A stretch of DNA of 64,000 nt. Origin: Aminobacter anthyllidis (GTDB lineage: Bacteria > Pseudomonadota > Alphaproteobacteria > Rhizobiales > Rhizobiaceae). Both the position numbers and the translations under genes were made by a program. The stretch lies in assembly GCF_018555685.1 (NCBI RefSeq), contig NZ_JAFLWW010000008.1, positions 1 through 64,000 of the forward strand, in the 5' to 3' direction. The notes under the pieces are model-generated. The model worked only from the letters and a program-made list of their open reading frames with translations. It was not told the DNA's origin and did no database searches. Positions within the stretch are counted from its first letter, which is position 1. Every line of letters begins with the position of its first letter. This document shows, one piece after another, positions 42,998 to 61,633 of this stretch.

Positions 42998-43122
42998 CTT
43001 CTCCCCGTGAACGGGGAGAAGATGCCGGCAGGCAGATGAGGGGCAGTGCTTACCGCTCCGAATTTGGAGCTGCCCCTCATCCGGCCCTTTGGGCCACCTT
43101 CTCCCCGTGAACGGGGAGAAGG
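42998..43122. repeat. RIME-like mosaic extragenic element 2
   Basis: Two near-identical hairpins (CTTCTCCCCGT / ACGGGGAGAAG) at 42998-43021 and 43097-43122 flank a central inverted repeat (ATGAGGGGCAG / CTGCCCCTCAT). It shares GCCGGCAGGCAG with the element at 40495. It separates two convergent genes and may also end their transcripts. Confidence 0.85.
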
Positions 43123-43135
43123 AAGAGGTCGCAGT

Positions 43136-44302
43136 TCAGCCTACCCCGTACTGCGTCATCAGCGCTGTCATGCGTTCGGCCGCAAGCTCCGGCCGGTCGA
43201 GCACATTGGCCTGGTCGGCGAGGCGGAAGATGTCGGCGTAGTGCACCGCACCTCGCGCGGACTGCATGCCCGCAGGCATGGTGAAATGGTTTTGGTGGCC
43301 GTTGAGCCAGGCGAGGAAGACGACGCCGGCCTTGTAGTACTGCGTCGGTGCCTCGAAGATCTTTCGCGACAGCGGCACCGTTGGCTCGATGGTGTCGCGG
43401 AAAGTGGCGAGGTCGCCCATGGCCAGCGCAGAAAGGGCCTTGGCGGCCTGAGGCGCCACCGCGTCGAAGATGCCAAGCAAGGCGTGGCTGTGATGCGTGC
43501 CGTCGCCCTCGATCAGGGCGGCATAGTTGAAATCGTCGCCGGTGAAGCAGATCACGCCTTCGGGCAGGCGGCGGCGCAGCTCGACCTCACAGGCCTGGTC
43601 GAGCAGCGAGATCTTGATGCCCTCGACCTTGTCCTTGTGATCGGCGATGACGGCGAGCACGGTCTCCAGCGCATCCTCGAACCGCGTGCTGCCCCAGTAG
43701 CCCGCCAGTTCGGCATCGAACATGTCGCCCAGCCAGTGCAGCACGACCTTGTCCTTGGCCTGGCCGAGGATGCGGCCATAGACCTTGCGATAGTCGTCGG
43801 GGGACTTCGCCACATGCGCAAGCGCGCGGCTGGCCATCATGACGGCGCGGCCGCCATGCTTTTCGATGAAGCCGAACTGTTCCTCGTAAGCCGCGATCAC
43901 GTTGTCGAGCGCGCGTGCGTCGCGCTTGTCGAGCTGGTCGGTGCCGGCTCCACAAGCGAGGTCGGCACCCGCAACCGTGCGCGCCTCTGCCAGCGAACGG
44001 CGGATCAGCTCCTGCGCGCCGGCCCAATCAAGCCCCATGCCGCGCTGCGAGGTGTCCATCGCCTCGGCGATCCTGAAGCCCAGCGACCAGAGATGATGGC
44101 GGAAGGCCATCGTCGCATCCCAGTCGATGGCCGGGTTGTTCCAGGGCGTCGCATCGGCCCACGGGTCTGAGACGACATGGGCCGCGGCGTAGGCGATGCG
44201 GTTGAAGACGGGGGCGGCTTCAGGCCGTTCGGTGGGCGTGCCGACAAGGGCGTAGGTCTCGATCGCGCGGTTCGCCCGCGGAAGTTTCATTGCCTTGGCC
44301 AT
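43136..44302 (-). CDS. DUF993 family, dihydrodipicolinate synthase-like aldolase
   Basis: This is a 388-aa protein of the DUF993 family, related to the DapA/NAL class of TIM-barrel lyases. KVEGIKISLLDQ contains Lys230 at the place of the Schiff-base lysine of DapA, so aldolase chemistry is plausible, but the reaction is unknown. GGGGAGG supports the first ATG. The gene diverges from a lacI gene and has a degenerate LacI palindrome 34 bases upstream, so it is probably part of the same regulon. Confidence 0.85.
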   Translation of the reverse strand: MAKAMKLPRANRAIETYALVGTPTERPEAAPVFNRIAYAAAHVVSDPWADATPWNNPAIDWDATMAFRHHLWSLGFRIAEAMDTSQRGMGLDWAGAQELIRRSLAEARTVAGADLACGAGTDQLDKRDARALDNVIAAYEEQFGFIEKHGGRAVMMASRALAHVAKSPDDYRKVYGRILGQAKDKVVLHWLGDMFDAELAGYWGSTRFEDALETVLAVIADHKDKVEGIKISLLDQACEVELRRRLPEGVICFTGDDFNYAALIEGDGTHHSHALLGIFDAVAPQAAKALSALAMGDLATFRDTIEPTVPLSRKIFEAPTQYYKAGVVFLAWLNGHQNHFTMPAGMQSARGAVHYADIFRLADQANVLDRPELAAERMTALMTQYGVG

Positions 44303-44335
44303 GGGTTCCTCCCCTGATCGGCTGAATCTCGTAAT

Positions 44336-44349
44336 TTAGATCGTTCCAA
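44336..44349. promoter_or_regulatory. Degenerate LacI-type operator before the DUF993 gene
   Basis: TTAGATCGTTCCAA matches the perfect palindrome at 44555-44568 in 12 of 14 positions, including the central CG. It lies 34 bases upstream of the DUF993 start codon. Confidence 0.6.
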
Positions 44350-44369
44350 ATTTCAAGTTGGAATTTTGT

Positions 44370-44546
44370 GCGTCATTCACGATGGCGTTGGATTCGCCGG
44401 TGGCGCGGTGTGTCGGAGCACTTGGACGTTAAGAAATGTAGTAAATCGTTTGAAATGCTCGAATTGTGTACAAAACAGGCATTCCGGCGACCTGCATTGC
44501 GGAGTGCATCCATTGTGAAATCGGCGGCATCTGCATTCTTCCATGC
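44370..44546. other. Divergent spacer between DUF993 gene and lacI
   Basis: This part of the 315-base divergent region holds no gene. It is AT-richer than the surroundings, which suits a regulatory region, but apart from the two LacI-type sites at its ends I see no further motif that I can support. Confidence 0.4.
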
Positions 44547-44575
44547 TTGACAGTTTGGAACGTTCCAATTATTTG
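44547..44575 (+). promoter_or_regulatory. lacI promoter with embedded operator
   Basis: TTGACA (44547-44552) is a perfect -35; 17 bases later comes TATTTG (44570-44575). The operator TTGGAACGTTCCAA (44555-44568) fills the spacer exactly. A repressor bound there would exclude RNA polymerase. Confidence 0.8.
44555..44568. promoter_or_regulatory. Perfect LacI-family operator
   Basis: TTGGAACGTTCCAA is a perfect 14-bp palindrome with the central CG step typical of LacI/GalR operators. It lies between the -35 and -10 boxes of the lacI promoter. Confidence 0.8.
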
Positions 44576-44617
44576 AATCGGAAAAGGGAGCCGAAGACGC
44601 TTCCCGGGAGGATCGTT

Positions 44618-46653
<2,036 letters not shown>

Positions 46654-46657
46654 GGCG

Positions 46658-48268
46658 ATGGGCAAGCACATCACGCCTGCTGAAGCAGCGGCACTCATAC
46701 CCGACGGCGCAGTGGTCTCCGTCTCGTCGTCGAGCGGGCTTGGCTGTCCTGATCTCATGCTGAAGGCGATCGGCGAGCGCTTCGAGACGACAGGGCATCC
46801 GCGCGACCTGACGACGCTGCACCCGATCGCCGCCGGCGATATGAGCGGCATCAAGGGTGTCGATCACATCGCCAGGAAGGGCCTGCTGAAGAAGATCATC
46901 GGCGGCTCCTATCCCTCGGGACCGTCGAGTTCCGAACCCCCGTTGATCTGGCAGATGATCGGCAATGAGGAGGTGGCAGCCTACAACGTGCCATCAGGCA
47001 TCATGTTCGACATGCACCGTGAAGCTGCCGCCAAGCGGCCGGGCGTGCTGACCAAGGTCGGGCTCGACACCTTCGTCGATCCTGATCGGCAGGGCTGCGC
47101 GATGAACGCGAAAGCCACTGCCGAGCCGGTGGTCAAGAAGGTCAGCTTCGAGGGCGAGGATTGGCTGTTCTTTCCCGCGATCGCACCGCAAGTCGCGATC
47201 ATCCGCGCAACGACCGCCGACGAACGCGGCAACCTGACCTATGAACACGAGGGTGCCTATCTCGGTGGTCTCGACCAGGCGCTTGCCGCGCGCAACAATG
47301 GCGGCATCGTCATTGCCCAGGTCAAGCGCATCACCAAGGACGGCTCGCTCAGGCCGCACGATGTGCGCGTGCCGGGCATGCTGGTCGACTACATCGTCGT
47401 CGATCCCGAGCAGAAGCAGACGACCCAGACTGCCTACGACCCGGCGATTTCGGGCGAGATCATGCGTCCGCTCGACAGTTTCCGCGTGCCGGAGTTCAAC
47501 ATCCAGAAGGTCATCGCCCGGCGCGTGGCGCAGGAACTCGAGGCCGGCAGCGCCGTCAATCTCGGATTCGGCATCTCGGCCAACGTGCCGCGCATTTTGC
47601 TGGAAGAGGGGCTGCATGGCGAGGTCACCTGGGTGATCGAACAGGGGGCTGTCGGCGGCGTGCCGCTGCTCGATTTCGCTTTCGGCTGCGCCTCGAATGC
47701 CGACGCCTTCATGCCGTCGCCCTATCAGTTCACCTATTTCCAGGGTGCTGGCTTCGATGCCTCGCTGTTGTCGTTCCTGGAGATTGACCGCAGCGGTTCG
47801 GTCAATGTCTCCAAGCTCAGCTTCCGGCCGCATGTGACGGCAGGCGCTGGCGGCTTCGTCGACATCACGGCGCGGGCGAAGAAGATCGTCTTTTCCGGCA
47901 TGTTCAATGCCGGTGCTAAGCTCGACGTTGCCGATGGCAAGCTCGTCATCGACAAGGAGGGTAAGCTCAAGAAGCTGGTCAACGAGGTCGAGCACGTCAC
48001 CTTCTCTGGCCGGCGCGGCGTCGAGCAGGGCCAGGACATCACGTATGTCACCGAGCGCTGCGTGATGAAGCTGACGCGTCAAGGCATCATGCTGACCGAG
48101 ATCGCGCCCGGCGTCGACCTCACGGCGAATATCCTCGACCAGTCGGAATTCCCGCTGATCGTTTCGGACAAGCTCAAGCAGATGGACGCGGCCTTGTTTG
48201 CCGACGCGCCGATCAGGCTCAAGCTGCCGCGTAAGGCTACGCTTACCCTTGGTGGTGCCCATGGCTGA
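46658..48268 (+). CDS. Acyl-CoA:carboxylate CoA-transferase (YdiF/propionate CoA-transferase type)
   Basis: This is a 536-aa class I CoA-transferase with alpha and beta parts fused. The catalytic Glu328 lies in WVIEQGAVGG. NLGFGISANVPRIL precedes it, the start of the second half. It moves CoA between short acyl-CoAs and free acids, thereby activating an acid formed in the pathway. It is part of the lacI operon and overlaps the enoyl-CoA hydratase gene by 8 bases. Confidence 0.9.
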   Translation: MGKHITPAEAAALIPDGAVVSVSSSSGLGCPDLMLKAIGERFETTGHPRDLTTLHPIAAGDMSGIKGVDHIARKGLLKKIIGGSYPSGPSSSEPPLIWQMIGNEEVAAYNVPSGIMFDMHREAAAKRPGVLTKVGLDTFVDPDRQGCAMNAKATAEPVVKKVSFEGEDWLFFPAIAPQVAIIRATTADERGNLTYEHEGAYLGGLDQALAARNNGGIVIAQVKRITKDGSLRPHDVRVPGMLVDYIVVDPEQKQTTQTAYDPAISGEIMRPLDSFRVPEFNIQKVIARRVAQELEAGSAVNLGFGISANVPRILLEEGLHGEVTWVIEQGAVGGVPLLDFAFGCASNADAFMPSPYQFTYFQGAGFDASLLSFLEIDRSGSVNVSKLSFRPHVTAGAGGFVDITARAKKIVFSGMFNAGAKLDVADGKLVIDKEGKLKKLVNEVEHVTFSGRRGVEQGQDITYVTERCVMKLTRQGIMLTEIAPGVDLTANILDQSEFPLIVSDKLKQMDAALFADAPIRLKLPRKATLTLGGAHG

Positions 48269-49040
48269 CCAGCGCATCAAGGTCGACTTCGATGGCCATA
48301 TCGCCGTCATCACCGCGGCCCGGCCCGACAAGCTCAACGCCTTCGACATCGACATGCTCAAGGCATTGTCGGCGGCGTGCGACGAGGTCGAGGCCAATGC
48401 GGAGATCCGCGTCGCCATCCTGACCGGCGAAGGCAAGGCCTTTTCGGCCGGCGGCGACATCAAGGCCTGGGGCGCAATGACGCCCAACGAATTCGGCCAT
48501 GCCTGGGTGCGCTTCGGCCACCGGGTGTTCGAGCGGCTGGCGACGCTGCGCGTGCCGCTGATCGCTGCCATTAACGGGCATGCGCTGGGCGGCGGGCTGG
48601 AGCTGGCGATTGCCGCCGACATCCGCATCGCCGAACGGCATGTGAAGATCGGCCTGCCGGAGACCGGGCTCGGCATGGTGCCAGGCTGGTCGGGCACGCA
48701 GCGGCTGGTGCGCCGTGCCGGTGCGCAGGTGGTGCGGCGCATGGCGCTGGGCGGCGAGGTCTTTTCCGCCGACGAAGCGGCATCGCTTGGGCTGATCGAC
48801 CATGTGGTCGAGACAGGCGAGGCGGTGACTGCGGCTCGCGACTATGCGGCGCGGATCGCGGCGCGCGGCCCGGCGGCTGTCGAGGTCGCAAAACTGATGA
48901 TCGCCACTGCGAGCGGCGAAGACAATGGCACCGCCGTCGAGGCGCTGGGCTCGATTCTCGTGGCCAAGACCGGGGACCTCAAGGAGGGGATCGCTGCCTT
49001 CAGCGAGAAGCGTGCCGCCAAATTTGCAGGAGAATGGTAA
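48261..49040 (+). CDS. Enoyl-CoA hydratase/isomerase (crotonase family)
   Basis: This is a 259-aa crotonase. GKAFSAGGDIKAW and NGHALGGGLELAIAADIRIA form the oxyanion hole. A Glu in LPETGLGMVPGWSGTQRL is at the site of the second catalytic glutamate. It adds water to, or isomerises, an enoyl-CoA; with the CoA-transferase just upstream it suggests that an acid in this pathway is processed as a CoA ester. The stop overlaps the next start (TAATG). Confidence 0.91.
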   Translation: MADQRIKVDFDGHIAVITAARPDKLNAFDIDMLKALSAACDEVEANAEIRVAILTGEGKAFSAGGDIKAWGAMTPNEFGHAWVRFGHRVFERLATLRVPLIAAINGHALGGGLELAIAADIRIAERHVKIGLPETGLGMVPGWSGTQRLVRRAGAQVVRRMALGGEVFSADEAASLGLIDHVVETGEAVTAARDYAARIAARGPAAVEVAKLMIATASGEDNGTAVEALGSILVAKTGDLKEGIAAFSEKRAAKFAGEW

Positions 49041-50560
49041 TGACGGTCCTGATGCGCCCCAAGCCGCTCGACGGCTTCAAGGTCCGCGAGTTCAAGATGC
49101 TGATCGACGGCAAGTGGACCGCCGGCGCCGAAGGCAAGATTCTTGAGCGTTCCAGCCCCGGCCACGGCACCGTTGTTAGCCGCTACGAGGCTGCGACGGC
49201 GGTCGACTCCGAGCGCGCCATCGCAGCGGCTCGTCGCGCGTTTCATGACGGCCACTGGCCGCGCATGACCGGTGCCGAACGCTCGCTGATCCTGTTGCGC
49301 GCCGCCGACATGATTGCCGCAAGGGCGGACGAGCTCGCCTTCCTCGACTGTATCGAATCCGGCAAGCCGATCTCGCAGGCCAAGGGTGAACTGGCCGGCG
49401 CTGCCGACATCTGGCGCTATGCTGCTGCCCTTGCGCGTGACCTGCATGGCGAAAGCTACAACACGCTCGGCGACGGCACGCTGGGCGTGGTGCTGCGCGA
49501 AGCGATCGGCGTGGTGTCGATCATCACGCCATGGAATTTCCCGTTCCTGATCGTCAGCCAGAAGCTGCCTTTCGCGCTCGCCGCCGGATGCACGGCAGTG
49601 GTCAAGCCGTCCGAGCTGACGTCAGGTTCGACCCTGGTGCTGGGCGAAATCCTCGAAGCCGCAGGTGTGCCTGAAGGCGTGGTCAACATCATCGTCGGCA
49701 CCGGCCCGGAAGCCGGCGCGCCACTGACCAGCCACCCCGACATCGACATGGTGTCGTTCACCGGCTCGACCGGCATCGGCCGGCTGACCATGGCCAATGC
49801 CGCGCAGACACTGAAGAAGGTGTCGCTGGAGTTAGGCGGCAAGAACCCGCAGATCGTCTTCCCCGACGCCAATCTCGACGACTTCATCGATGCGGCGGTG
49901 TTCGGTGCCTACTTCAACGCCGGCGAATGCTGCAATGCCGGTTCGCGGCTGATCGTGCATCGTGACGTTCTGGACGAGGTGACCAGCCGCGTCGCCGCAC
50001 TTGCGGCCAAGGTCAAGGTTGGCGATCCGCTCGACCCCGCGACGCAGGTTGGTGCTATCATCACACCGCAGCATCTTGCGAAGATCGTCACTTACGTGAA
50101 AGGTGCGAGCGACAGTGGCGCGAGTGTCGCCATCGGTGGATCTGCCGCCGATCTCGGCCTCGGCCAGTTCATGGAACCGACGATCCTGTCGTCGGTCGCC
50201 CCCGACATGGCGGTGGCGCGCGAGGAGGTGTTCGGGCCGGTGCTTTCGGTGCTTGCCTTCGAGACCACTGACGAGGCGATCCGCATCGCCAATTCGATCG
50301 ACTATGGCTTGTCGGCCGGCGTGTGGAGCCGCGACTTCGACACCTGCCTGACGGTGGGCCGTCGCGTCCGCGCCGGCACCATCTGGATGAACACCTTCAT
50401 GGACGGCGCGTCGGAACTGCCGTTCGGCGGCTACCGCCAGTCGGGCATCGGCCGCGAACTCGGCCGCCATGCGGTAGAGGACTACACAGAGACCAAGACG
50501 CTCAACATGCATATCGGACCGCGCACCGGCCACTGGATGCCGAAGGAGGCGCGGGCCTGA
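49040..50560 (+). CDS. Aldehyde dehydrogenase
   Basis: This is a 506-aa NAD(P)-dependent aldehyde dehydrogenase. ITPWNFPFL has the catalytic Asn, LELGGKNP the Glu, and NAGECCNAG the nucleophile Cys298; the usual Gln two residues before the nucleophile is Glu here. Overlap with the enoyl-CoA hydratase stop (TAATG) and AGGAG eight bases before favour the start at 49040 over an ATG six bases upstream. It probably makes the acid that is later activated by the CoA-transferase. Confidence 0.92.
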   Translation: MTVLMRPKPLDGFKVREFKMLIDGKWTAGAEGKILERSSPGHGTVVSRYEAATAVDSERAIAAARRAFHDGHWPRMTGAERSLILLRAADMIAARADELAFLDCIESGKPISQAKGELAGAADIWRYAAALARDLHGESYNTLGDGTLGVVLREAIGVVSIITPWNFPFLIVSQKLPFALAAGCTAVVKPSELTSGSTLVLGEILEAAGVPEGVVNIIVGTGPEAGAPLTSHPDIDMVSFTGSTGIGRLTMANAAQTLKKVSLELGGKNPQIVFPDANLDDFIDAAVFGAYFNAGECCNAGSRLIVHRDVLDEVTSRVAALAAKVKVGDPLDPATQVGAIITPQHLAKIVTYVKGASDSGASVAIGGSAADLGLGQFMEPTILSSVAPDMAVAREEVFGPVLSVLAFETTDEAIRIANSIDYGLSAGVWSRDFDTCLTVGRRVRAGTIWMNTFMDGASELPFGGYRQSGIGRELGRHAVEDYTETKTLNMHIGPRTGHWMPKEARA

Positions 50561-50643
50561 GAAGGAATTCCCCGAGGCGGGGCCAAGGGGAACTTATGTC
50601 ACGCGATGACGCGTGAAGAACTTGCAACCCGGGAGGAACTGGA

Positions 50644-51897
50644 ATGCGTAAGTTTTTGATGAGTACGGCAGCTGTGGCGGCATTGTTTGCCGCGCCGATG
50701 CCGATGGCACATGCCGAAGATAGCGTCGAAGTGCTGCACTGGTGGACCTCGGGCGGTGAAGCTGCCGCCCTCGACGTGCTGAAGAAGAACCTCGAAAGCC
50801 AGGGCGTGACCTGGAAAGACATGCCGGTTGCCGGCGGCGGCGGCGAAGCGGCGATGACCGCGCTGCGCGCCCGCGTCACCGCAGGCGATCCGCCCACCGC
50901 GGTGCAGGCGCTTGGCTTCGACATCACCGACTGGGCCAACCAGGGCGTCGTCGGCGATCTCGGCGAAGTGGCCGACAAGGAAGGCTGGGACAAGGTCGTT
51001 CCCGCAGCGCTGCAGAACTTCGCCAAGCATGACGGCAAGTGGATTGCTGCTCCCGTGAACGTGCACTCGACAAACTGGGTGTGGATCTCCAAGAAAGCGC
51101 TCGACGCCGCCGGCGGCAAGGCGCCCGAGACCTGGGACGAGTTGGTCGCCGTGCTCGACAAGATGCAGGCCAATGGCATCACCCCGCTCGGCCATGGCGG
51201 CCAGGCCTGGCAGGACGCGACGATCTTCGACGCCGTCGTGCTGTCGCTCGGCACCGACTTCTACAAGTCGTCGATGATCGATCTCGATCCGGCGGCACTG
51301 GGTGGCGACAAGATGGTCGAAGCCTTCGACCGCATGGCCAAGCTCAAGAGCTATGTCGACAAGGACTTCTCCGGCCGCGACTGGAACCTTGCTTCGGCGA
51401 TGGTCATCGAGGGCAAGGCCGGCATGCAGATGATGGGTGACTGGGCCAAGGGCGAGTTCCTCAAGGCTGGCCAGAAGCCGGGCACGGACTTCGTCTGCAT
51501 CCGCTTCCCCGGCACGCAGGGCGCTGTGACCTTCAACTCGGACATGTTCATGATGTTCAAGGTCGGCGACGACAAGAAGAAGGCCCAGATGCAGATGGCC
51601 GCGGACATCGAGGATCCGGCCTTCCAGTCGTCGTTCAACGTGGTCAAGGGCTCGGTCCCGGCGCGTACCGACGTGCCTGACACCGCCTTCGACGATTGCG
51701 GCAAGAAGGGCATCAAGGACCTGGCCGAAGCCAGCACCGGCGGCAAGCTGTTTGGCTCCATGGCTCATGGCTATGCCGCACCGGCAGCGGTCAAGAACGC
51801 GCTCTATGACGTGGTGACACGCCACTTCAACGGCGAGATCGACTCCAAGGCCGCTGCCAAGGCCCTGGTCGAGGCGGTTGCCGCCGCCAAGGGGTGA
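50644..51897 (+). CDS. ABC sugar transporter substrate-binding protein (CUT1)
   Basis: This is a 417-aa periplasmic protein with a Sec signal peptide ending AHA (about residue 24). The mature start [20 protein letters not shown] is typical of the glucose/mannose (GtsA-like) and related carbohydrate-binding proteins of rhizobia. GGGAGGAACT lies before the ATG. It delivers a carbohydrate or polyol-like ligand to the two permeases downstream; the exact ligand cannot be read. Confidence 0.9.
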
Positions 51898-51919
51898 GAC
51901 GCCGGTTTGCGCAGCAAAT

Positions 51920-52028
51920 CCATCGTGCCGGTGGCACGATGGAAGGCAGCGAACGCCGGGGAGCTGCGTAGCAGCGGGGGCACGGCGGCCCTTCAGCGAA
52001 CTTTGTGCCCCGGCTTCGGCCGGGGCAC
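51920..52028. other. Two strong hairpins between binding protein and permease
   Basis: CCATCGTGCC/GGCACGATGG (51920-51942) has a 10-bp stem and GGT loop. GTGCCCCGGC/GCCGGGGCAC (52005-52028) has a 10-bp stem and a TTCG tetraloop. Neither has a T-run, so they are more likely RNA-stability elements protecting the binding-protein mRNA than terminators. Confidence 0.75.
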
Positions 52029-52058
52029 GCCTGACCTGACAACCCAGAGGCTGGACCC

Positions 52059-52976
52059 ATGGCCGATATCACCACGACCGCACCCCGCGCGGTAACGAAC
52101 CCGCGCGCGACGCTGCAGGACCTTCTGCCGAAGCTCGTGCTGGCGCCGAGCTTCGCGGTGATCCTCATCTTCGTTTATGGCTTCATCATCTTCACGGCCT
52201 TCCTGTCGTTTTCCGGCTCGAAGCTTTTGCCCGATTTTTCGACCTGGGTCGGCTTCGGCAACTATGTCAGGCTGTTCAATCATCCCAACTGGATCACGGC
52301 GCTCAAGAACCTCGCCATCTTCTCGGTGCTGTACATCGTTGTCTGCAGCTTCATCGGCCTGGCGCTGGCCATCTTCCTCGACCAGAAGATCCGCGGCGAA
52401 GGTTTCCTCAGGCCGATCTACCTCTACCCGATGGCGCTGTCCTTCATCGTCACCGGCGTCGCCTGGAAGTGGTTCCTCGACCCCGGCATCGGCCTCGAGC
52501 ATGTGATGCAGTCGTGGGGCTGGGAGAGCTTTTCGTTCCGCTGGATCAAGGAAGGCCAGATGGCGATCTACACCATCGTCATCGCGGCGGTCTGGCAATC
52601 GTCGGGCTTCGTCATGGCGATGTTCCTCGCCGGCCTGCGCGGCGTCGACAACGAGATCATCAAGGCGGCCCAGATCGACGGCGCCTCGACCCTGACCATC
52701 TACCGCCGCATCATCATTCCGCTGATGCGGCCGGTGTTCCTGTCGGCCTTCGTGGTGCTCGCCCACCTCGCCATCAAGTCCTACGACCTTGTCGTGGCGA
52801 TGACCGACGGCGGCCCCGGCACCGCGACCTGGACCCCGGCATTGTTCATGCAGAAATTCACCTTCGGCCGCAACGAAATGGGCATGGGCGCGGCGTCCGC
52901 GATCATCATGATGATGATGATCTTCACCATCATCGTGCCCTATCTCTACTCCGAGCTCGGGGGGAAGAAGAAATGA
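52059..52976 (+). CDS. ABC sugar transporter permease (CUT1, MalF-like)
   Basis: This is a 305-aa inner-membrane protein with six expected spans. The EAA loop is IIKAAQIDGASTLTIYRRIIIP. It is of the GtsB/UgpA type. Its stop overlaps the next permease gene's start (ATGA). The N-terminal 25 residues are cytoplasmic and poorly conserved. Confidence 0.92.
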   Translation: MADITTTAPRAVTNPRATLQDLLPKLVLAPSFAVILIFVYGFIIFTAFLSFSGSKLLPDFSTWVGFGNYVRLFNHPNWITALKNLAIFSVLYIVVCSFIGLALAIFLDQKIRGEGFLRPIYLYPMALSFIVTGVAWKWFLDPGIGLEHVMQSWGWESFSFRWIKEGQMAIYTIVIAAVWQSSGFVMAMFLAGLRGVDNEIIKAAQIDGASTLTIYRRIIIPLMRPVFLSAFVVLAHLAIKSYDLVVAMTDGGPGTATWTPALFMQKFTFGRNEMGMGAASAIIMMMMIFTIIVPYLYSELGGKKK

Positions 52977-53854
52977 GCGCCGCTTCACAAGACGTCGCCA
53001 CCCGCAACAGCATCTTCGCCCGCGCCATCATCTATGTCGTGCTGATCCTGTTTGCGATCTACTACCTGCTGCCGCTCTACGTCATGGTGGTCAATTCTCT
53101 GAAACCGCTCGACGAGATCCGGCAGGGCAACATGCTGGCGCTGCCCCAGCAATGGACGATCGCGCCCTGGTTGTCGGCCTGGTCGACGGCGCAGATCGGC
53201 GTGCAGCCGGTCGGACTGAAGCCCTATTTCATCAACTCGATGCTGATGGTCGTGCCCGCGGTTGCCATCTCGACGATGCTCGGCGCGCTCAACGGTTATG
53301 TGCTGACCAAGTGGCGCTTCAAGGGCGACAGCATCGTCTTCGGCATGATGCTGCTGGCCTGCTTCATCCCGTTCCAGATCGTGCTGATCCCCTCGGCCCG
53401 CATCCTCGGCCTGACCGGGCTTGCCGGCACCATCACCGGGCTGGTGCTGATCCACGCCATCTATGGTCTCGGCTTCACCACGCTGTTCTTCCGCAATTAC
53501 TACGAGGCATTTCCGACCGAACTGATCCGCGCCGCGCAGATCGACGGCGCCAGCTTCTTCCAGATCTTCCGCCGCATCCTCTTGCCGTCGTCGGGGCCGA
53601 TCATCGTCGTCACCGTCATCTGGCAGTTCACCAACATCTGGAACGACTTCCTGTTCGGCTCGTCCTTCTCGGGCTTCAATTCGATCCCGCTGACGGTGGC
53701 GCTGAACAACCTCGTTAACTCGTCGACCGGCGTGAAGGAATACAACGTCCACTTCGCCGGCGCGATCCTCGCCGCCCTGCCCACCCTCATCGTCTACATC
53801 GTCTCCGGACGCTACTTCGTGCGCGGCCTGATGGCCGGCGCGGTCAAGGGGTAA
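52973..53854 (+). CDS. ABC sugar transporter permease (CUT1, MalG-like)
   Basis: This is a 293-aa inner-membrane protein with six expected spans and the EAA loop ELIRAAQIDGASFFQIFRRI. It is of the GtsC/UgpE type. Start fixed by ATGA overlap; the longer open frame upstream is in another gene. It ends four bases before the ATPase gene. Confidence 0.92.
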   Translation: MSAASQDVATRNSIFARAIIYVVLILFAIYYLLPLYVMVVNSLKPLDEIRQGNMLALPQQWTIAPWLSAWSTAQIGVQPVGLKPYFINSMLMVVPAVAISTMLGALNGYVLTKWRFKGDSIVFGMMLLACFIPFQIVLIPSARILGLTGLAGTITGLVLIHAIYGLGFTTLFFRNYYEAFPTELIRAAQIDGASFFQIFRRILLPSSGPIIVVTVIWQFTNIWNDFLFGSSFSGFNSIPLTVALNNLVNSSTGVKEYNVHFAGAILAALPTLIVYIVSGRYFVRGLMAGAVKG

Positions 53855-53858
53855 GCCC

Positions 53859-54974
53859 ATGTCGTTTCTCAAGATCAGCAATCTCTACAAGAACTACGGC
53901 CAGGTAGAGATCCTCAAGGACATCAACATCGAGATCGACAAGGGCGGCTTCCTGGTGCTCGTCGGCCCGTCCGGCTGCGGCAAGTCCACGCTGCTCAACA
54001 CCATCGCCGGGCTCGAGCCGATCACCTCGGGCGAGATCTCCATCAACGGCAATTCGGTGGCCGGGCTGCATCCATCCAAGCGCGACATCGCCATGGTGTT
54101 CCAGTCCTACGCGCTCTACCCGAACATGACCGTAGCGGGGAACATTGCGTTCGGCATGGAAATCCGCGGGGTGCCCAAGGACGAGCGCGACAAGGCGATC
54201 AAGCAGGTATCCGACATCCTGCAGATCGGCCACCTGCTCGACCGCAAGCCGAGCCAACTTTCCGGCGGCCAGCGCCAGCGTGTCGCCATGGGTCGGGCGC
54301 TGGTGCGCGATCCGCAGGTGTTTTTGTTCGACGAACCGCTGTCCAATCTCGACGCCAAGCTGCGCGTCGACATGCGCACCGAGATCAAGCGCCTGCACCA
54401 GCGCATGAAGACGACGATCGTCTATGTCACGCACGACCAGATCGAGGCGATGACGCTGGCAAGCAAGATCGCCGTGCTGAAGGATGGCATGCTGCAGCAG
54501 TTCGGCACGCCGGCGGAGATTTACAACAGCCCGGCCAACATGTTCGTTGCCGACTTCATGGGCTCTCCGGCGATGAATCTGCTCAACTGCCGCCTCGAAG
54601 GCGGGGCGGGCGGGCTCAGCGTCATACTCGCTCGACCCGACGATCAGCCGCTGGCGCTGCCAATCAAGATGCCCAATGGCGCGCTCGACGCCTATTCCGG
54701 CAAGGAGATCATCTTCGGTGTTCGCCCGGAAGCGCTGACCGACCCTGACGGTGCCGACCGCAACGCCAAGTCCATCGCCGAAGGCGAATGCCTGATCGAG
54801 GTGGTCGAGCCGGCAGGCTCCGACACCTTCGCGGTGACCAAGCTCGGCGGCAAGGAAGTGGTGGCGCGGCTGCGTGCCGACGCGGCCATCCATGCCGGCC
54901 AGAAGACCAAGCTCGCCTTCAATCTCGACAAGGCGGTGTTCTTCGACCCGAAGAGCCAGCTGCGCATCGCTTGA
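53859..54974 (+). CDS. ABC sugar transporter ATP-binding protein (MalK/UgpC-like)
   Basis: This is a 371-aa protein. Walker A is GPSGCGKS (36-43), the signature LSGGQRQR, and Walker B FLFDEPLSNLDAKLR, typical of MalK/UgpC. A C-terminal TOBE-like regulatory domain follows from about 240. It powers the CUT1 importer. The gap to the next gene is one base, so importer and catabolic genes form one transcription unit. Confidence 0.94.
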   Translation: MSFLKISNLYKNYGQVEILKDINIEIDKGGFLVLVGPSGCGKSTLLNTIAGLEPITSGEISINGNSVAGLHPSKRDIAMVFQSYALYPNMTVAGNIAFGMEIRGVPKDERDKAIKQVSDILQIGHLLDRKPSQLSGGQRQRVAMGRALVRDPQVFLFDEPLSNLDAKLRVDMRTEIKRLHQRMKTTIVYVTHDQIEAMTLASKIAVLKDGMLQQFGTPAEIYNSPANMFVADFMGSPAMNLLNCRLEGGAGGLSVILARPDDQPLALPIKMPNGALDAYSGKEIIFGVRPEALTDPDGADRNAKSIAEGECLIEVVEPAGSDTFAVTKLGGKEVVARLRADAAIHAGQKTKLAFNLDKAVFFDPKSQLRIA

Positions 54975-54975
54975 C

Positions 54976-56484
54976 ATGTCGAGACAGCCTGACATCGTCA
55001 TCATCGGTTCGGGTATCGGCGGCGCGACTGTCGCCGCCGGCCTCGCCGCGACCGGTGCCGAAATCCTGATCCTGGAGACCGGTGGGCATATAGAGGATCG
55101 CCCGGAGAACCGCGACCAGCGCGCCATCTTCCAGCGCGGCCATTTTCGACCCGACGAGACCTGGTATGAGGCCGACGGCACCGGCTTCAACCCGGGTAAC
55201 TACTACAATGTCGGTGGCAATTCGAAATTCTATGGTGCAGTGCTGACGCGCTATCGCGGCGAGGATTTTGCCGAGATGCAGCATCTCGACGGCGTGTCGC
55301 CGGCATGGCCGATTGCCTATGAAGAACTGGAGCCGTGGTACGCTCTCGCCGAAGAGCTTTTTCAGGTGCGCGGGGCGTTGGGGGAGGATCCGACCGAACC
55401 CGTGCATTCAACCGGCTATTCGCACGGGCCTGTTGCCGACGAGCCGGCAATCGCCGCAGTGCGGGCGAAGCTGAGGGCCAAGGGCGTACATCCCTTCTCG
55501 TTGCCGCTCGGCGTCGACATCGAGCGCTGGCTGGCCAAGGGCAAGACGCCTTGGGACGCGCATCCCAATAGCTTCGACGGCAAGATGGACGCCGAGACGG
55601 CGGCACTTGCGGCGGCGCTGGAGTATGACAACGTCAAGCTGCAGACTGGCTCGCGGGTGACGCGGCTGGAGACCGGTCCGGACGGGCGTGACATCGCTGC
55701 CGTGCACTACGTCCAGGACGGTGAGAACCGGGTGCTGAGGCCCAACCTGGTCATCCTGTCGGCGGGTGCGGTTCAGTCAGCCGTGCTCCTGCTGCGCTCG
55801 GCCAATGACGCCAATCCCAACGGCCTTGCCAACAGCTCCGACCAGGTCGGCCGCAACTTCATGAACCACAACTCGACGGCGGTGATCGCCATGAGCCCAT
55901 GGTTCCGCAACGACTCGGTCTACCAGAAGACCTTCGGGTTCAACGATTTCTACCTCTCCGACGGCGAGGGCGGACCGCCGCTCGGCAATGTTCAGTTGCT
56001 TGGGCGCATCTCGGGCACGATCCTGAAAGGGGCGATGCCGGCAGTGCCCGAGTGGCTGCTGAACCGGGTGACCGCGCATTCGATCGACTTCTACGCCATG
56101 AGCGAGGACCTGCCGTCGCCGGAAAGCCGGGTCATGGTCGACGGCGAGCGCATCGTGCTGAAATGGGTGCGCAGCAACTGGCAGGCGCACGAGCGGCTTG
56201 TTGCCAAGCTCAAGCAGGTGCTGCGCAGTGCCGGCTTTCCGCTCGTGGTCTCCCGCGCCTTCGACAAGCGCACACCCTCGCACCAGTGCGGTACGGTGCG
56301 GATGGGCACCGACCCCAAGGACGCGCCGCTCGATGTCTTCTGCCGTGCCTTCGACCATCCGAACCTGTTCGTCGTCGATGCGAGCTTCCTGCCGACATCG
56401 GCGGCGGTCAATCCGGCACTGACAATCGCGGCCCAGGCGTTGCGGGTTGCCGACCACATCGCGCAAAAGGATCTGGCGGCATGA
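54976..56484 (+). CDS. GMC family FAD-dependent oxidoreductase 1
   Basis: This is a 502-aa flavoprotein. The FAD motif IVIIGSGIGGATVAAGLA begins at residue 7. GGNSKFYGAVL follows the usual flavin-contacting loop. HQCGTVRMG and VNPALTIAAQALR near the end carry the catalytic His and Asn. It is shorter and clearly distinct from the second GMC protein of the operon and looks more like sugar-oxidising members. It probably oxidises a hydroxyl of the imported compound. Its stop overlaps the SDR start (ATGA). Confidence 0.88.
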   Translation: MSRQPDIVIIGSGIGGATVAAGLAATGAEILILETGGHIEDRPENRDQRAIFQRGHFRPDETWYEADGTGFNPGNYYNVGGNSKFYGAVLTRYRGEDFAEMQHLDGVSPAWPIAYEELEPWYALAEELFQVRGALGEDPTEPVHSTGYSHGPVADEPAIAAVRAKLRAKGVHPFSLPLGVDIERWLAKGKTPWDAHPNSFDGKMDAETAALAAALEYDNVKLQTGSRVTRLETGPDGRDIAAVHYVQDGENRVLRPNLVILSAGAVQSAVLLLRSANDANPNGLANSSDQVGRNFMNHNSTAVIAMSPWFRNDSVYQKTFGFNDFYLSDGEGGPPLGNVQLLGRISGTILKGAMPAVPEWLLNRVTAHSIDFYAMSEDLPSPESRVMVDGERIVLKWVRSNWQAHERLVAKLKQVLRSAGFPLVVSRAFDKRTPSHQCGTVRMGTDPKDAPLDVFCRAFDHPNLFVVDASFLPTSAAVNPALTIAAQALRVADHIAQKDLAA

Positions 56485-57257
56485 AGGCGCAGGCAAAACC
56501 CGTAGCGCTGGTGACCGGCGCGCGGCGCGGCATCGGCCTCGCGGTTGCCGAGGCGCTCGCCAGGGCGGGCTTCGATCTCGCGATTACCGACCGCGAAGCA
56601 GACGCAACCTCGACTGAGGCGGTTTCGGGCCTGGAAAAGCATGGCGCGCGCGTGCTGTTCGTCGCCTCCGACCTCGCCGACCTCGATGGCCATGCCAAGA
56701 CGGTCGAGACAATCGTCGGGCACTTCGGACGGATCGACTGCCTTGTCAACAATGCCGGCGTCGCGTCCAGCGTGCGCGGCGACTTCCTCGAACTGACGCC
56801 CGAGAATTATAACGCCATCATGGCGGTCAATCTGCGCGGCACCGTGTTCTTCACCCAGGCGGTGCTGCGCTCCATGCTCATCGCCCCACCCACATTGCAT
56901 CCGCGCTCGGTGATCAACATCACCTCGATCTCGGCCGAGATGACGTCGCCCGACAGGCTCGACTATTGCATGTCGAAGGCCGGGCTCGCCGCCTTCACGC
57001 AAGGGCTGACGCTGCGGCTCGCTGGTACCGGCATCGACGTGTTCGAGATCAGGCCCGGCATCATCCGCTCCGACATGACGGCAAAGGTTTCGGAAAAATA
57101 CGACCGGCTGATCGCAGACGGGCTCGTGCCGATCAAACGCTGGGGCGAGCCCGATGACATCGGCCGCATAGCGGCAGCACTTGCCAGCGGCGCCTTCGGT
57201 TTCGCCACCGGTTCCATCATCAGGGCTGACGGCGCGCTGTCGGTCGCGCGACTTTGA
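56481..57257 (+). CDS. Short-chain dehydrogenase/reductase
   Basis: This is a 258-aa SDR with VTGARRGIG at residues 11-19, NNAG, and the catalytic Tyr-x-x-x-Lys in DYCMSKAG. Ser of the triad is in NITSIS. RPGIIRSDM after the active site is standard. Such proteins reduce ketones or oxidise secondary alcohols with NAD(P). It is wedged between two GMC flavoprotein genes, which suggests that it acts on the same carbon skeleton. Confidence 0.9.
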   Translation: MKAQAKPVALVTGARRGIGLAVAEALARAGFDLAITDREADATSTEAVSGLEKHGARVLFVASDLADLDGHAKTVETIVGHFGRIDCLVNNAGVASSVRGDFLELTPENYNAIMAVNLRGTVFFTQAVLRSMLIAPPTLHPRSVINITSISAEMTSPDRLDYCMSKAGLAAFTQGLTLRLAGTGIDVFEIRPGIIRSDMTAKVSEKYDRLIADGLVPIKRWGEPDDIGRIAAALASGAFGFATGSIIRADGALSVARL

Positions 57258-57265
57258 GATCAGAG

Positions 57266-58921
57266 ATGACCTACGACTACATCATCACAGGTGCAGGTCC
57301 AGCCGGTTGCGTGCTTGCCAACCGGCTGAGTGAGGATTCGGATGTCCGCGTGCTGCTGCTCGAAGCGGGTGGCGGCGACTGGAACCCGCTGTTTCACATG
57401 CCGGCGGGTTTTGCCAAGATGACCAAGGGCGTGGCGAGCTGGGGCTGGGAGACCGTGCCGCAGAAGCATATGAAGAACCGCGTGCTGCGCTATACCCAGG
57501 CCAAGGTGATAGGCGGCGGTTCGAGCATTAACGCCCAGCTCTACACGCGCGGCAACGCCGCCGACTACGATCTGTGGGCGAGCGAGGACGGCTGCACCGG
57601 CTGGGACTACCGCTCGGTGCTGCCCTATTTCAAGCGTTCGGAAGACAATCAGCGCTTCGCCGATGACTATCATGGCTATGGCGGGCCGCTGGGCGTGTCG
57701 ATGCCGTCGGCGGCCTTGCCGATCTGCGACGCCTATATCCGCGCCGGCCAGGAGCTAGGCATTCCCTACAACCACGATTTCAACGGCAAGCAACAGGCTG
57801 GCGTCGGCTTCTACCAGCTGACCCAGCGCAACAAGCGGCGCTCTTCGGCTTCGATGGCCTATCTCAGCCCGATCAAGGACCGGCGCAACCTGACCGTCCG
57901 CCTGGGCGCGCGGGTGACGCGCATCGTGGTCGAAAAGGGCAGGGCCGCGGGCGTCGAAGTGGCGACCGGCAAGGGCACCGAGATCATTCGCGCCGAGCGC
58001 GAGGTCCTCGTATCCTCCGGCGCCATTGGCTCGCCCAAGTTGCTGCTCCAGTCGGGCATCGGCCCCGCCGATCACCTGAAGAGCGTCGGCGTTCCTGTGG
58101 TCCACGACCTCAAGGGCGTCGGCGAAAACATGCAGGATCATCTCGACCTGTTCGTGATCTCCGAATGCACGGGGGATCACACCTACGACAATGTCGCCAA
58201 GCTGCACCGCACGCTGTGGGCCGGGCTGCAATATGTGCTGTTTCGCACCGGGCCGGTGACGTCGAGCCTCTTTGAGACAGGCGGCTTCTGGTATGCCGAT
58301 CCCGATGCGCGTTCGCCCGACATCCAGTTCCATCTCGGTCTGGGCTCGGGCATCGAGGCCGGCGTCGCCAGGCTTAAGAACGCCGGCGTGACCCTGAATT
58401 CGGCCTATCTGCATCCGCGCTCGCGGGGCACGGTGCGGCTTGCCTCGAATGACCCGGCGGCAGCCCCGCTGATCGACCCGAACTACTGGAGCGATCCGCA
58501 CGACCGCAAGATGTCGATCGAAGGCCTGAGGATCGCGCGCGAGATCATGCAGCAGGCGGCACTCAAGCCCTTCGTCCTGGCCGAGCGGCTGCCGGGACCG
58601 GGCAAGGTCTCGGACGAGGACCTGTTCGAATATAGCTGTGCCAACGCCAAGACCGACCATCACCCCGTCGGCACCTGCAAGATGGGTACCGATGACATGG
58701 CCGTTGTCGACCTCGAACTCAAGGTGCGCGGCATCGAGGGCCTGCGCGTCTGCGACAGCTCGGTGATGCCGCGCGTGCCGTCCTGCAACACCAACGGCCC
58801 GACGATCATGATGGGCGAAAAGGGCGCCGACATCATCCGTAACCGCGATCCCCTGCCGCCAGCGATCTTCACCCACGAGCGCAACGACGCGCGGCCACGC
58901 GCCCGTGCCGAGGTGCGGTGA
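57266..58921 (+). CDS. GMC family FAD-dependent oxidoreductase 2 (choline dehydrogenase-like)
   Basis: This is a 551-aa flavoprotein of the choline/alcohol dehydrogenase class. DYIITGAGPAGCVLANRLS binds FAD; GGSSINAQLYTRGN is the second GMC signature. HHPVGTCKMG and SCNTNGPTIMMG hold the catalytic His and Asn. It oxidises a primary alcohol to aldehyde or acid. The ATG at 57266 begins the conserved fold; a TTG 12 bases upstream is possible. It is the last gene of the lacI operon; a hairpin follows. Confidence 0.92.
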   Translation: MTYDYIITGAGPAGCVLANRLSEDSDVRVLLLEAGGGDWNPLFHMPAGFAKMTKGVASWGWETVPQKHMKNRVLRYTQAKVIGGGSSINAQLYTRGNAADYDLWASEDGCTGWDYRSVLPYFKRSEDNQRFADDYHGYGGPLGVSMPSAALPICDAYIRAGQELGIPYNHDFNGKQQAGVGFYQLTQRNKRRSSASMAYLSPIKDRRNLTVRLGARVTRIVVEKGRAAGVEVATGKGTEIIRAEREVLVSSGAIGSPKLLLQSGIGPADHLKSVGVPVVHDLKGVGENMQDHLDLFVISECTGDHTYDNVAKLHRTLWAGLQYVLFRTGPVTSSLFETGGFWYADPDARSPDIQFHLGLGSGIEAGVARLKNAGVTLNSAYLHPRSRGTVRLASNDPAAAPLIDPNYWSDPHDRKMSIEGLRIAREIMQQAALKPFVLAERLPGPGKVSDEDLFEYSCANAKTDHHPVGTCKMGTDDMAVVDLELKVRGIEGLRVCDSSVMPRVPSCNTNGPTIMMGEKGADIIRNRDPLPPAIFTHERNDARPRARAEVR

Positions 58922-58950: not shown

Positions 58951-58979
58951 AGGCCACGGGCGCAAGGCGCCCGTGGCCT
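58951..58979. terminator. Hairpin between convergent genes
   Basis: AGGCCACGGGCGC and GCGCCCGTGGCCT form a perfect 13-bp stem around an AAG loop. It lies 29 bases past the GMC stop and 28 bases past the stop of the leftward DUF1344 gene, so it can end both transcripts although the T-tracts are weak. Confidence 0.75.
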
Positions 58980-59445: not shown

Positions 59446-60417
59446 TCAATCGATTTGGCCAATTGCCGCATGGCAGGCGACGTTGGCGCCGCTGGACGAA
59501 CGCTTCAGTTCCGGCCGCTCCTTGCTGCAGATATCCATCGCCAGCGGGCAGCGCGGGTGGAAGGTGCAGCCGCTCGGCGGGTTGAGCGGGCTTGGGATAT
59601 CGCCACCCAGAGGCGCGCGGTTGCGCTTCGGCGCCTCAAGGTCGGGCACGGTTTCGAGCAGCAGCCTGGTGTAGGGGTGCTGCGGATTTTCGAGGATGAT
59701 TTCGCTCGGACCCTCCTCGACGAGGCGGCCGAGATACATCACGCCGATGCGGTCGGTGAGATAGCGCACCACCGACAGATTGTGGCTGATGAACAAATAG
59801 GTCAGGCCCAGTTTCTGCTGCAAATCCTTGAGCAGGTTGAGCACCTGCGCCTGCACCGAAACGTCGAGTGCCGAGGTCGGCTCGTCGAGCAACAGCAGTT
59901 CGGCCTCGGCGGCGAGGGCGCGGGCGATCGAGATGCGCTGGCGCTGGCCGCCGGAGAACTCGTGCGGGTACTTGTCGGCATCGCTGGGCGCCAGGCCGAC
60001 AGTGACAAGCAGTTCGGCGATGCGCTTGCGGCGCTCAGTGCGGCCAAGCTTTCGCGCCACCGGCTCGAGGATGCTCTGGCCGATGCGCCAGCGCGGGTTC
60101 AGGCTGCCGACGGGATCCTGGAACACCATCTGCAGGCGGACACGCTCGCCGCCCGGCTTGCGGATTTCGACCGAACCGCTTGTCGGCCTTTCCAGGCCGG
60201 CGACGAGGCGAGCGACGGTCGACTTGCCGCAGCCGGATTCGCCGACCAGCGAGAAGGTGGTGCCGGGGCGGATCGCGAAGCTGACACCATCGACAGCCTT
60301 GACGCTGCGACGCGGCGCCCGGGTTACGAGGCGTTGCAGGAATGGCGCCGAGACGTCGAAGGTGCGGCCGAGATTGGCGACCTTGAGCAGGGGCAGTTCG
60401 GTGACGACTGCGTTCAT
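59446..60417 (-). CDS. Peptide/nickel-type ABC transporter ATP-binding protein (OppF/DppF-like)
   Basis: This is a 323-aa protein. Walker A is GESGCGKS (59-66), Walker B LLLLDEPTSALD, and the signature FSGGQRQR. The C-terminal Cys-rich segment SGCTFHPRCPLAMDIC is the oligopeptide transporter tail that may hold an iron-sulfur cluster. It is the only ATPase gene in this cluster, while importers of this type usually have two (D and F). Start overlaps the amidohydrolase stop (ATGA on the minus strand). Confidence 0.92.
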   Translation of the reverse strand: MNAVVTELPLLKVANLGRTFDVSAPFLQRLVTRAPRRSVKAVDGVSFAIRPGTTFSLVGESGCGKSTVARLVAGLERPTSGSVEIRKPGGERVRLQMVFQDPVGSLNPRWRIGQSILEPVARKLGRTERRKRIAELLVTVGLAPSDADKYPHEFSGGQRQRISIARALAAEAELLLLDEPTSALDVSVQAQVLNLLKDLQQKLGLTYLFISHNLSVVRYLTDRIGVMYLGRLVEEGPSEIILENPQHPYTRLLLETVPDLEAPKRNRAPLGGDIPSPLNPPSGCTFHPRCPLAMDICSKERPELKRSSSGANVACHAAIGQID

Positions 60418-61616: not shown

Positions 61617-61633
61617 GATGCGGTTCCGTGGTC

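Follow-up and report, generated by a model that had tools for sequence, protein, structure and literature searches.

A LacI-type operon of Aminobacter anthyllidis tentatively assigned to aerobic 1,5-anhydrohexitol use

Gene content of the operon

What kind of substrate would call for sugar-type oxidoreductases and coenzyme A (CoA) chemistry in one and the same operon? This question is raised by a gene run in a stretch of 64,000 nucleotides from Aminobacter anthyllidis (contig NZ_JAFLWW010000008.1, positions 1 to 64,000; hereafter the window), for which a preliminary description had known no described pathway. CoA tagging is better known for fats and aromatics than for sugars. We find that the Gfo/Idh/MocA gene of this run (gfo) is, by its sequence, a close orthologue of the Sinorhizobium 1,5-anhydro-D-fructose reductase (AFR; PDB 2GLX and 4KOA), and we tentatively propose that the run is an operon under LacI control through which 1,5-anhydrohexitols (1,5-anhydroglucitol, 1,5-anhydrofructose, and 1,5-anhydromannitol) are used aerobically, by the steps set out below. 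The substrate class is the part of this proposal that we favor, if only slightly; the opening of its ring to an acid of the 2-keto-3-deoxygluconate (KDG) type, by CoA chemistry that we infer, is possible but doubtful.

All 13 genes lie at the places and are of the kinds given in the preliminary description, 12 of them codirectional on the forward strand and the DUF993 gene divergent:

43136..44302, minus strand: DUF993 protein (PF06187), predicted class I aldolase-like TIM barrel
44618..45655, plus strand: lacI-family regulator, TTG start
45652..46653, plus strand: gfo, AFR orthologue (Gfo/Idh/MocA), K94, D176, and H180 present
46658..48268, plus strand: fused class I CoA-transferase (coaT), YdiF/FadX-like, E328 aligned with YdiF E333
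48261..49040, plus strand: enoyl-CoA hydratase (crotonase, ech), glutamates E114 and E134
49040..50560, plus strand: aldehyde dehydrogenase (ALDH, gene aldh), BADH-like, E264 and C297/C298
50644..51897, plus strand: CUT1 solute-binding protein (sbp), kin of glucose-binding proteins
52059..52976, plus strand: CUT1 permease 1 (GlcT/UgpA-like)
52973..53854, plus strand: CUT1 permease 2 (GlcU/UgpE-like)
53859..54974, plus strand: CUT1 ABC ATPase (UgpC/MalK type)
54976..56484, plus strand: GMC oxidoreductase 1 (GMC1, gene gmc1), H436/N479, like glucose/fructose dehydrogenases and pyranose oxidases
56481..57257, plus strand: SDR oxidoreductase (sdr; PRK12745 family)
57266..58921, plus strand: GMC oxidoreductase 2 (GMC2, gene gmc2), H466/N510, choline-dehydrogenase/alcohol-oxidase-like

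The gene families bear out the picture of codirectional catabolic genes headed by lacI, in which sugar-type and CoA-type enzymes are mixed. The further statement that most stop and start codons overlap was slightly generous, since five of the 11 junctions overlap (by 1 to 8 bases) and the other six are gaps, four of them of 1 to 8 bases and two larger (83 bases between aldh and sbp, 161 bases between sbp and the first permease gene).

An orthologue of 1,5-anhydro-D-fructose reductase and its partner enzymes

The Gfo protein aligns with AFR at full length and without gaps over 331 to 333 residues (E = 9e-176 for 2glx and 1e-175 for 4koa), and K94, D176, and H180, which we take to be the catalytic residues of AFR, are present in the window protein and in all aligned relatives (95, 94, and 94 rows). 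The checked catalytic residues of its partners are kept equally well, with one exception among the CoA-transferases: this fused alpha/beta chain with the class I domain PF01144 aligns full-length with 2ahu and places E328 opposite YdiF E333, a position occupied by glutamate in 147 of 148 aligned rows, and crotonase E114 and E134 are each found in 125 of 125 rows. On the sugar side, the binding protein groups with glucose-type binding proteins and GMC1 resembles glucose/fructose dehydrogenases and pyranose oxidases; GMC2 matches choline-dehydrogenase and alcohol-oxidase types.

Two other substrates suggested by individual enzymes were rejected. Choline or betaine use by GMC2 and ALDH does not agree with the scores of these proteins, as ALDH falls below the cut-off of TIGR01804 (479 versus 669 bits) and GMC2 below that of TIGR01810 (505 versus 732 bits), though GMC2 nearly reaches the broader choline-dehydrogenase model PRK02106 (594 versus 605 bits). 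A ferulate-type CoA pathway (CoA activation, crotonase lyase, and ALDH), prompted by the order coaT-ech-aldh, was dismissed because the importer, AFR, and GMC1 indicate a sugar. Schemes for polyethylene glycol and furfural were weighed by gene content only.

The AFR orthology also bears on the novelty of the locus. In a 2025 review, Rhizobiaceae (S. morelense) are stated to convert 1,5-anhydrofructose to 1,5-anhydromannitol, which is then hydroxylated at C1 by a P450-like enzyme to give mannose (PMC12441222). The earlier view that no pathway is described for such genes therefore does not hold for this step, and the locus appears not wholly undescribed but to place a known first step within a conserved gene set of unusual proposed chemistry. 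Our literature search found no description of the whole pathway, an absence that weighs little as coverage was partial and most subscription papers lay outside it.

The same report supplies an alternative to our proposal, namely that AFR forms 1,5-anhydromannitol for C1 hydroxylation to mannose by an oxygenase here as well, while the CoA enzymes encoded here act on another compound. The window shares with that Sinorhizobium system an orthologous gfo gene and the same bacterial order, but it differs in having CoA enzymes and no recognizable oxygenase: family searches found neither an oxygenase nor a mannose enzyme among the 13 genes (the genome was not searched for P450), and coaT, ech, aldh, the importer genes, gmc1, and gmc2 stay joined in six of 11 related loci that lack gfo. 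An acid and CoA-ester route fits this content better, and we consider the mannose route unlikely, although it ranks first among the alternatives.

Proposed pathway

Because they have no anomeric hydroxyl, 1,5-anhydrohexitols are shut out of normal sugar metabolism. In the proposed pathway, they would be imported by the CUT1 system through its glucose-type binding protein, and GMC1 would oxidize 1,5-anhydroglucitol at C2 to 1,5-anhydrofructose, which AFR would reduce with NADPH to 1,5-anhydromannitol, the two steps together inverting C2. GMC2 and ALDH may then oxidize C6 to the acid, a 2,6-anhydrohexonate, so that the acid part that the preliminary description had expected in the substrate need not be ready-made but could be produced by these two enzymes.

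Subsequently, the CoA-transferase would form the thioester, in which C5-H should be acidic, and the crotonase may take off C5-H and C4-OH, both on one face, the geometry that crotonases require. Hydration of the resulting cyclic enol ether at C5, for which we postulate an enzyme, would open the ring to a 2-keto-3-deoxy-hexonate, and since CoA would pass from this product to the next substrate, CoA-transferase and crotonase together would act as an ATP-free dehydratase. From the Fischer projection derived on paper, C3 and C2 of the manno compound would become C4 and C5 of D-2-keto-3-deoxygluconate (D-KDG), while the gluco compound would yield the L-threo configuration; this difference would give the manno selectivity of AFR a purpose and explain the inversion of C2. 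Finally, either DUF993 or a KDG kinase and 2-keto-3-deoxy-6-phosphogluconate (KDPG) aldolase of the host would produce pyruvate and glyceraldehyde, the latter then giving glycerate.

Several elements of this scheme have parallels in known systems. In the 3,6-anhydro-L-galactose pathway of agar degraders, an ALDH likewise makes an anhydro-acid that is opened to a 2-keto-3-deoxy acid, but there by a cycloisomerase without CoA, unlike what we propose. The carnitine dehydratase CaiB/CaiD is a comparable CoA-recycling dehydratase of CoA-transferase and crotonase, though CaiB is a class III transferase, whereas the enzyme here is of class I (PF01144) and a sugar acid is its proposed substrate. Hydrolytic opening of a ring as CoA ester by a hydratase or crotonase together with an ALDH is shared with PaaZ and BoxC/BoxD, whose rings are aromatic-derived; we know of no sugar case of this kind of cleavage. 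The nonphosphorylative Entner-Doudoroff branch has in common with our scheme a KDG-type aldolase of the DapA fold, an aldehyde dehydrogenase, and a MOFRL glycerate 2-kinase, but the aldolase candidate here is DUF993 and the kinase lies outside the window operon. Finally, the gut-bacterial glycyl-radical pathway for 1,5-anhydroglucitol-6-phosphate acts on the same substrate class but, according to the review, relies on phosphorylation by a phosphotransferase system (PTS) and on an oxygen-sensitive radical enzyme (PMC12441222). This anaerobic pathway was rejected for the window, where no PTS component or glycyl radical enzyme is found among the 13 genes.

Conservation among the nearest relatives

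Genome contigs were scanned with the CoA-transferase, and from at least 532 relatives the best 80 loci were kept, a set biased toward near kin; genes were scored as present at 50% or more identity by tblastn within a flank of 10 kb that often ends before gmc2. By their titles, these loci come nearest from Aminobacter, then from Ensifer/Sinorhizobium, Rhizobium, Agrobacterium, Mesorhizobium, and others, genera that we take to be Rhizobiales, and two are named Brucella. The same gene order, for which the preliminary description had proposed a search in other Rhizobiales, recurs there, and most of the best 80 loci hold a longer run. CoA-transferase and crotonase are present in all 80, the crotonase gene each time directly after that of the CoA-transferase, followed in frequency by lacI (79), ALDH (78), GMC1 (73), the binding protein (71), gfo (68), and DUF993 (62); the values for sdr (54/80) and gmc2 (36/80) are not counts of absence, since the flank ends early in many loci. 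This recurring order argues that the arrangement is not due to chance.

The genes for DUF993 and gfo come and go together. Among 78 loci with enough upstream DNA, 61 have both, six have gfo alone, none has DUF993 alone, and 11 have neither (Fisher 1.6e-9, with shared descent ignored). Of the 11 gfo-free loci, six (L041, L052, L058, L070, L076, and L078) retain coaT, ech, aldh, the importer, gmc1, and gmc2, four end too early to judge, and one (L064) consists of lacI, coaT, and ech only; sdr is missing between gmc1 and gmc2 in four of the 11 (L052, L058, L076, and L078). These comparisons give gfo and DUF993 the look of an accessory module, leaving lacI, coaT, ech, aldh, the importer, gmc1, and gmc2 as the minimal complete set. 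The genome of L064, Rhizobium sp. P32RR-XVIII, has two operon starts, and its second operon copy (L031) contains gfo and hence AFR.

The transport block is sometimes set apart. Of 71 relatives holding both aldh and sbp, 34 carry an insert of 1.4 to 1.7 kb between them, with an opposite-strand frame bearing a LacI-type helix-turn-helix (HTH) in 33 cases, one of which was read whole (L014, 13996-15060); the insert of L073 fails the LacI HTH motif, yet a lacI-like stretch was flagged there. Such regulator-bearing inserts suggest that the transport block is at times a separately controlled unit. Independent promoters of the sub-blocks had been named as evidence that would speak against a single operon, and in this respect the transport block is indeed set apart by an insert in 34 of 71 relatives, while the window itself has neither such an insert nor a second LacI-type regulator between aldh and sbp.

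If taken further, this separability could mean that a sugar importer/dehydrogenase module and an unrelated acyl-CoA module were joined by chance: the insert parts the importer from the rest in about half of the loci, and the importer is missing beside the enzymes in two loci that are Brucella by title (L072 and L084), of which L072 lacks ALDH as well. However, both modules are again joined in this order in divergent genomes from other families (L147, L150, L182, L188, and L189), and we regard a chance joining as highly improbable.

The same comparisons are relevant to a different idea, that the true substrate is another glucopyranose-like compound (a glycoside, a C-glycoside, or a 2-keto aldose) and that the activity of Gfo on 1,5-anhydrofructose is incidental. 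It would account for the ten operon-bearing genomes without AFR and for the second LacI-type regulator at the transport block of about half of the relatives, and it agrees with the resemblance of GMC1 to broad sugar dehydrogenases and with AFR being said to reduce further 2-keto aldoses. Yet the window operon has no glycosidase or eliminase gene, and it lacks the xylose-isomerase-like barrel found in three divergent genomes (G117, G404, and G272), so that this explanation, too, seems unlikely and ranks just after the mannose route. A 3-ketoglycoside catabolic operon in particular was rejected, as neither a xylose-isomerase-like protein nor a DUF1080 eliminase/hydrolase is among the 13 window genes.

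Divergent genomes and the role of DUF993

Beyond the nearest relatives, CoA-transferase matches were found in 25 of 385 genomes class-wide (E <= 1e-100) and in 22 of 398 phylum-wide (E <= 1e-180), the own genome counted in both; a search of viral contigs for relatives of the CoA-transferase found none. We read the neighborhoods of 21 matching and related genomes, of which 16 were readable past the cluster end, with G272, G514, G454, G709, and G622 left out of the count of kinase linkage below; the set includes three same-genus pairs (G117/G404, G568/G593, and G622/G693), and G709 is apparently the genome of L041. Near-complete operons occur in another alphaproteobacterial family (G164, L147/L213), several genomes of family f25, G645, and one genome outside the class (G581).

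Some of these clusters contain additional genes. In G164 and L147/L213, the order is lacI, gfo, coaT, ech, aldh, CUT1, gmc1, sdr, gmc2, a small protein, DUF993, and glycerate kinase; DUF993, a lacI-like gene, and a MOFRL glycerate 2-kinase lie beyond gmc2 in G693, G568, and G593, and the latter two genes also in G716. A more compact arrangement is seen in G117/G404 (coaT, ech, sdr, DUF993, a xylose-isomerase-like barrel, gmc2, a fumarylacetoacetate (FAA) hydrolase, and kinase) and in G699 (coaT, ech, kinase, sdr, and DUF993). Altogether, a glycerate 2-kinase is found in or beside the cluster in eight of the 16 genomes (G164, G593, G568, G693, G716, G117, G404, and G699, from six genera and three families). 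A MOFRL kinase exists somewhere in 18 of 20 genomes searched, as a single copy in 15 of those 18. The FAA hydrolase of G117 has relatives in G404 (92%) and, about 2 kb past the cluster, in G593 (55%). That glycerate 2-kinase genes, a KDG-kinase-like gene (one genome), and diketo-acid-hydrolase-like genes (three genomes) lie near the cluster would be explained by a pathway that ends in a KDG-type acid. Beside the cluster of divergent genomes, we also observed a small protein of about 102 residues (L205 2419-2727, L211, L212, L213, and L214); that of L205 matched no NCBIfam model at E 0.001.

The aldolase-like character attributed to DUF993 is upheld by its structure model (pLDDT 89.7), which has the (beta/alpha)8 barrel of the dihydrodipicolinate synthase (DHDPS) fold. 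Its nearest structure is the solved protein SMc04132 (4dnh), and the other matches listed (two lists of 50) are DHDPS/DapA-family chains. A lysine, K230, lies on strand 226-232 and is invariant among relatives. A text search of the literature for DUF993 found nothing. Of 14 genomes whose operon locus has no DUF993, 13 have a copy elsewhere, and only that of L078 has none; these copies are probably paralogues because they share 53% to 59% identity and mostly lie beside another Gfo gene. At L155 (7960-12376), a CUT1 importer, a xylose-isomerase-like barrel, and two Gfo genes accompany a paralogous DUF993 (57%), apparently as a second uncharacterized DUF993 system.

If DUF993 is an aldolase, the CoA enzymes might as well act after it rather than before: other enzymes would open the sugar, DUF993 would release glyceraldehyde and a C3 acid (e.g., 3-hydroxypropionate), and CoA-transferase and crotonase would process the latter. 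A CoA-transferase of the YdiF/FadX type and the linkage to glycerate kinase fit this order of events, as does the acyl-CoA dehydrogenase in the cluster of G272, whose best NCBIfam match is acryloyl-CoA reductase. That gene is present, however, in just one of 19 loci searched and reaches 389 bits against a curated cut-off of 640, and the run holds no obvious enzyme for a prior ring opening. We therefore place this order of events third among the alternatives and think it improbable.

A number of observations weigh against our proposal of 1,5-anhydrohexitol use through ring opening and DUF993. First, crotonases hydrate the beta carbon and not the alpha carbon that bears the ring oxygen, so the proposed dehydration and ring opening need a further activity. 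Second, the DUF993 pocket is unusual: K230 pairs with the Schiff-base lysine of DapA in a weak profile match (probability 13%, E 0.002), and by reading, the carboxylate-binding GxxGE motif of DapA-type aldolases is absent after strand 77-79, where EAMDTSQRG stands at 80-88, a region outside the aligned range of that match. The substrate of DUF993 should therefore differ from those of DapA or ordinary KDG aldolases, and the FAA hydrolase-type enzyme beside it in G117/G404 suggests that C-C cleavage there may be the work of an enzyme other than DUF993. Third, ten of the 11 genomes without gfo and DUF993 at the locus have no AFR anywhere at E <= 1e-60, so AFR is dispensable to the core, and the loci that lack sdr show the same for the SDR.

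The linked genes have similar limits. Eight of the 16 genomes show no linked glycerate kinase (G154, G610, G645, G581, G468, G148, G327, and G355, where it is 34 kb off), and in the genome of the window it lies elsewhere, outside the cluster. The linked kinases score 172 to 209 bits with the nearest NCBIfam model against a cut-off of 550, the one of G117 being placed by domain content; the kinase four genes past gmc2 in G154 is nearest to 2-dehydro-3-deoxygluconokinase at 261 bits (cut-off 400), and the FAA hydrolase of G117 is nearest to 2,4-didehydro-3-deoxy-L-rhamnonate hydrolase at 366 bits (cut-off 500). For the genes of the operon, no growth phenotype was found. Moreover, the C1 hydroxylation of 1,5-anhydromannitol to mannose that the review reports for Rhizobiaceae (PMC12441222) needs no CoA. 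The weak points of the proposal are the hydration step, the unusual pocket of DUF993, operons that lack AFR, and the mannose route of the literature.

Control elements and the Sinorhizobium meliloti counterpart

Three sites flank the genes of the operon:

44336..44349, strand not assigned: second palindrome copy TTAGATCGTTCCAA with two mismatches, upstream of DUF993
44547..44575, plus strand: predicted lacI/operon promoter, TTGACA and TTATTT/TATTTG with TTGGAACGTTCCAA in the spacer
58951..58979, plus strand: terminator-like hairpin of 13 pairs, downstream of the last gene (gmc2)

The palindrome TTGGAACGTTCCAA (44555-44568), upstream of lacI, occurs as an exact copy once in the 6.7-Mb genome and, in the form TTGGAWCGWTCCAA, is kept in all of the 80 related loci but L041 and L074 (78 loci); it is probably the LacI operator. 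Further palindromes in this genome do not exceed chance, all but the exact site being two-mismatch matches (reversed-pattern control, 11 versus 9). As such a match, TTAGATCGTTCCAA alone is likewise not above chance, and the argument for it is its conservation in the alignment. With one unique exact site and this second copy before DUF993, the run is most likely, and DUF993 probably, under the control of LacI. Of two candidate starts of lacI, the TTG at 44618, shortly preceded by GGGAGG, is the better; the listed ATG at 44543 comes before the palindrome and is probably not a start. A scan of the region for sigma-70-type promoters found none (2.7 expected in shuffles), so the predicted promoter rests on conservation and reading only, and terminator-like sites show no excess (12 versus 9.8 in shuffles, sd 2.8).

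Apart from these sites, the window has palindromic repeat-like sequences in its gaps at 43000-43130 (CTTCTCCCCGTGAACGGGGAGAAG type) and, of another kind, at 51900-52050 between sbp and permease 1. Downstream, at 59446-62713 on the minus strand, lies a convergent run that appears, by eye, to include an amidohydrolase gene and ABC transporter genes of the dipeptide type.

The counterpart of the run in S. meliloti 1021 should extend from SMc04401 (lacI) to SMc04390 (GMC2), because a LeuB-like gene (by eye) lies upstream of DUF993 in L044, leuB is SMc04405, and SMc04390-04392 are grouped. The latter three were assigned to one module as sorbose dehydrogenase, SDR, and dehydrogenase with log2 changes of -1.98, -2.38, and -1.80 (PMC12542648). 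smc04396, by position presumably the binding protein, is induced by dextrin (PMC4960864). A network study lists SMc04401, presumably the counterpart of the window LacI, with a mean predicted regulon of four genes in S. meliloti (PMC4560400).

Significance

Taken together, the proposal comprises the opening of the ether ring of 1,5-anhydrohexitols by a CoA-recycling dehydratase, an undescribed class of sugar catabolism widespread in Alphaproteobacteria, a new class I aldolase family in DUF993, and an aerobic 1,5-anhydroglucitol pathway, a combination that we hold to be doubtful as a whole. The human body contains 1,5-anhydroglucitol as one of its main polyols, and the neutropenia seen in glycogen storage disease type Ib (GSDIb) and G6PC3 deficiency is caused by the phosphate of this compound. 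According to the 2025 review, gut bacteria use an anaerobic radical pathway for this compound and an oxidative one is not described, while lowering it via gut bacteria would require an enzyme that works aerobically (PMC12441222). The operon offers a concrete candidate gene set for oxidative 1,5-anhydroglucitol use. If the proposal is true, it would fill in the steps after AFR, give DUF993 a function, and extend CoA-ester ring opening to a sugar, and soil bacteria would probably consume, under one switch, a form of glucose that lacks the anomeric hydroxyl.

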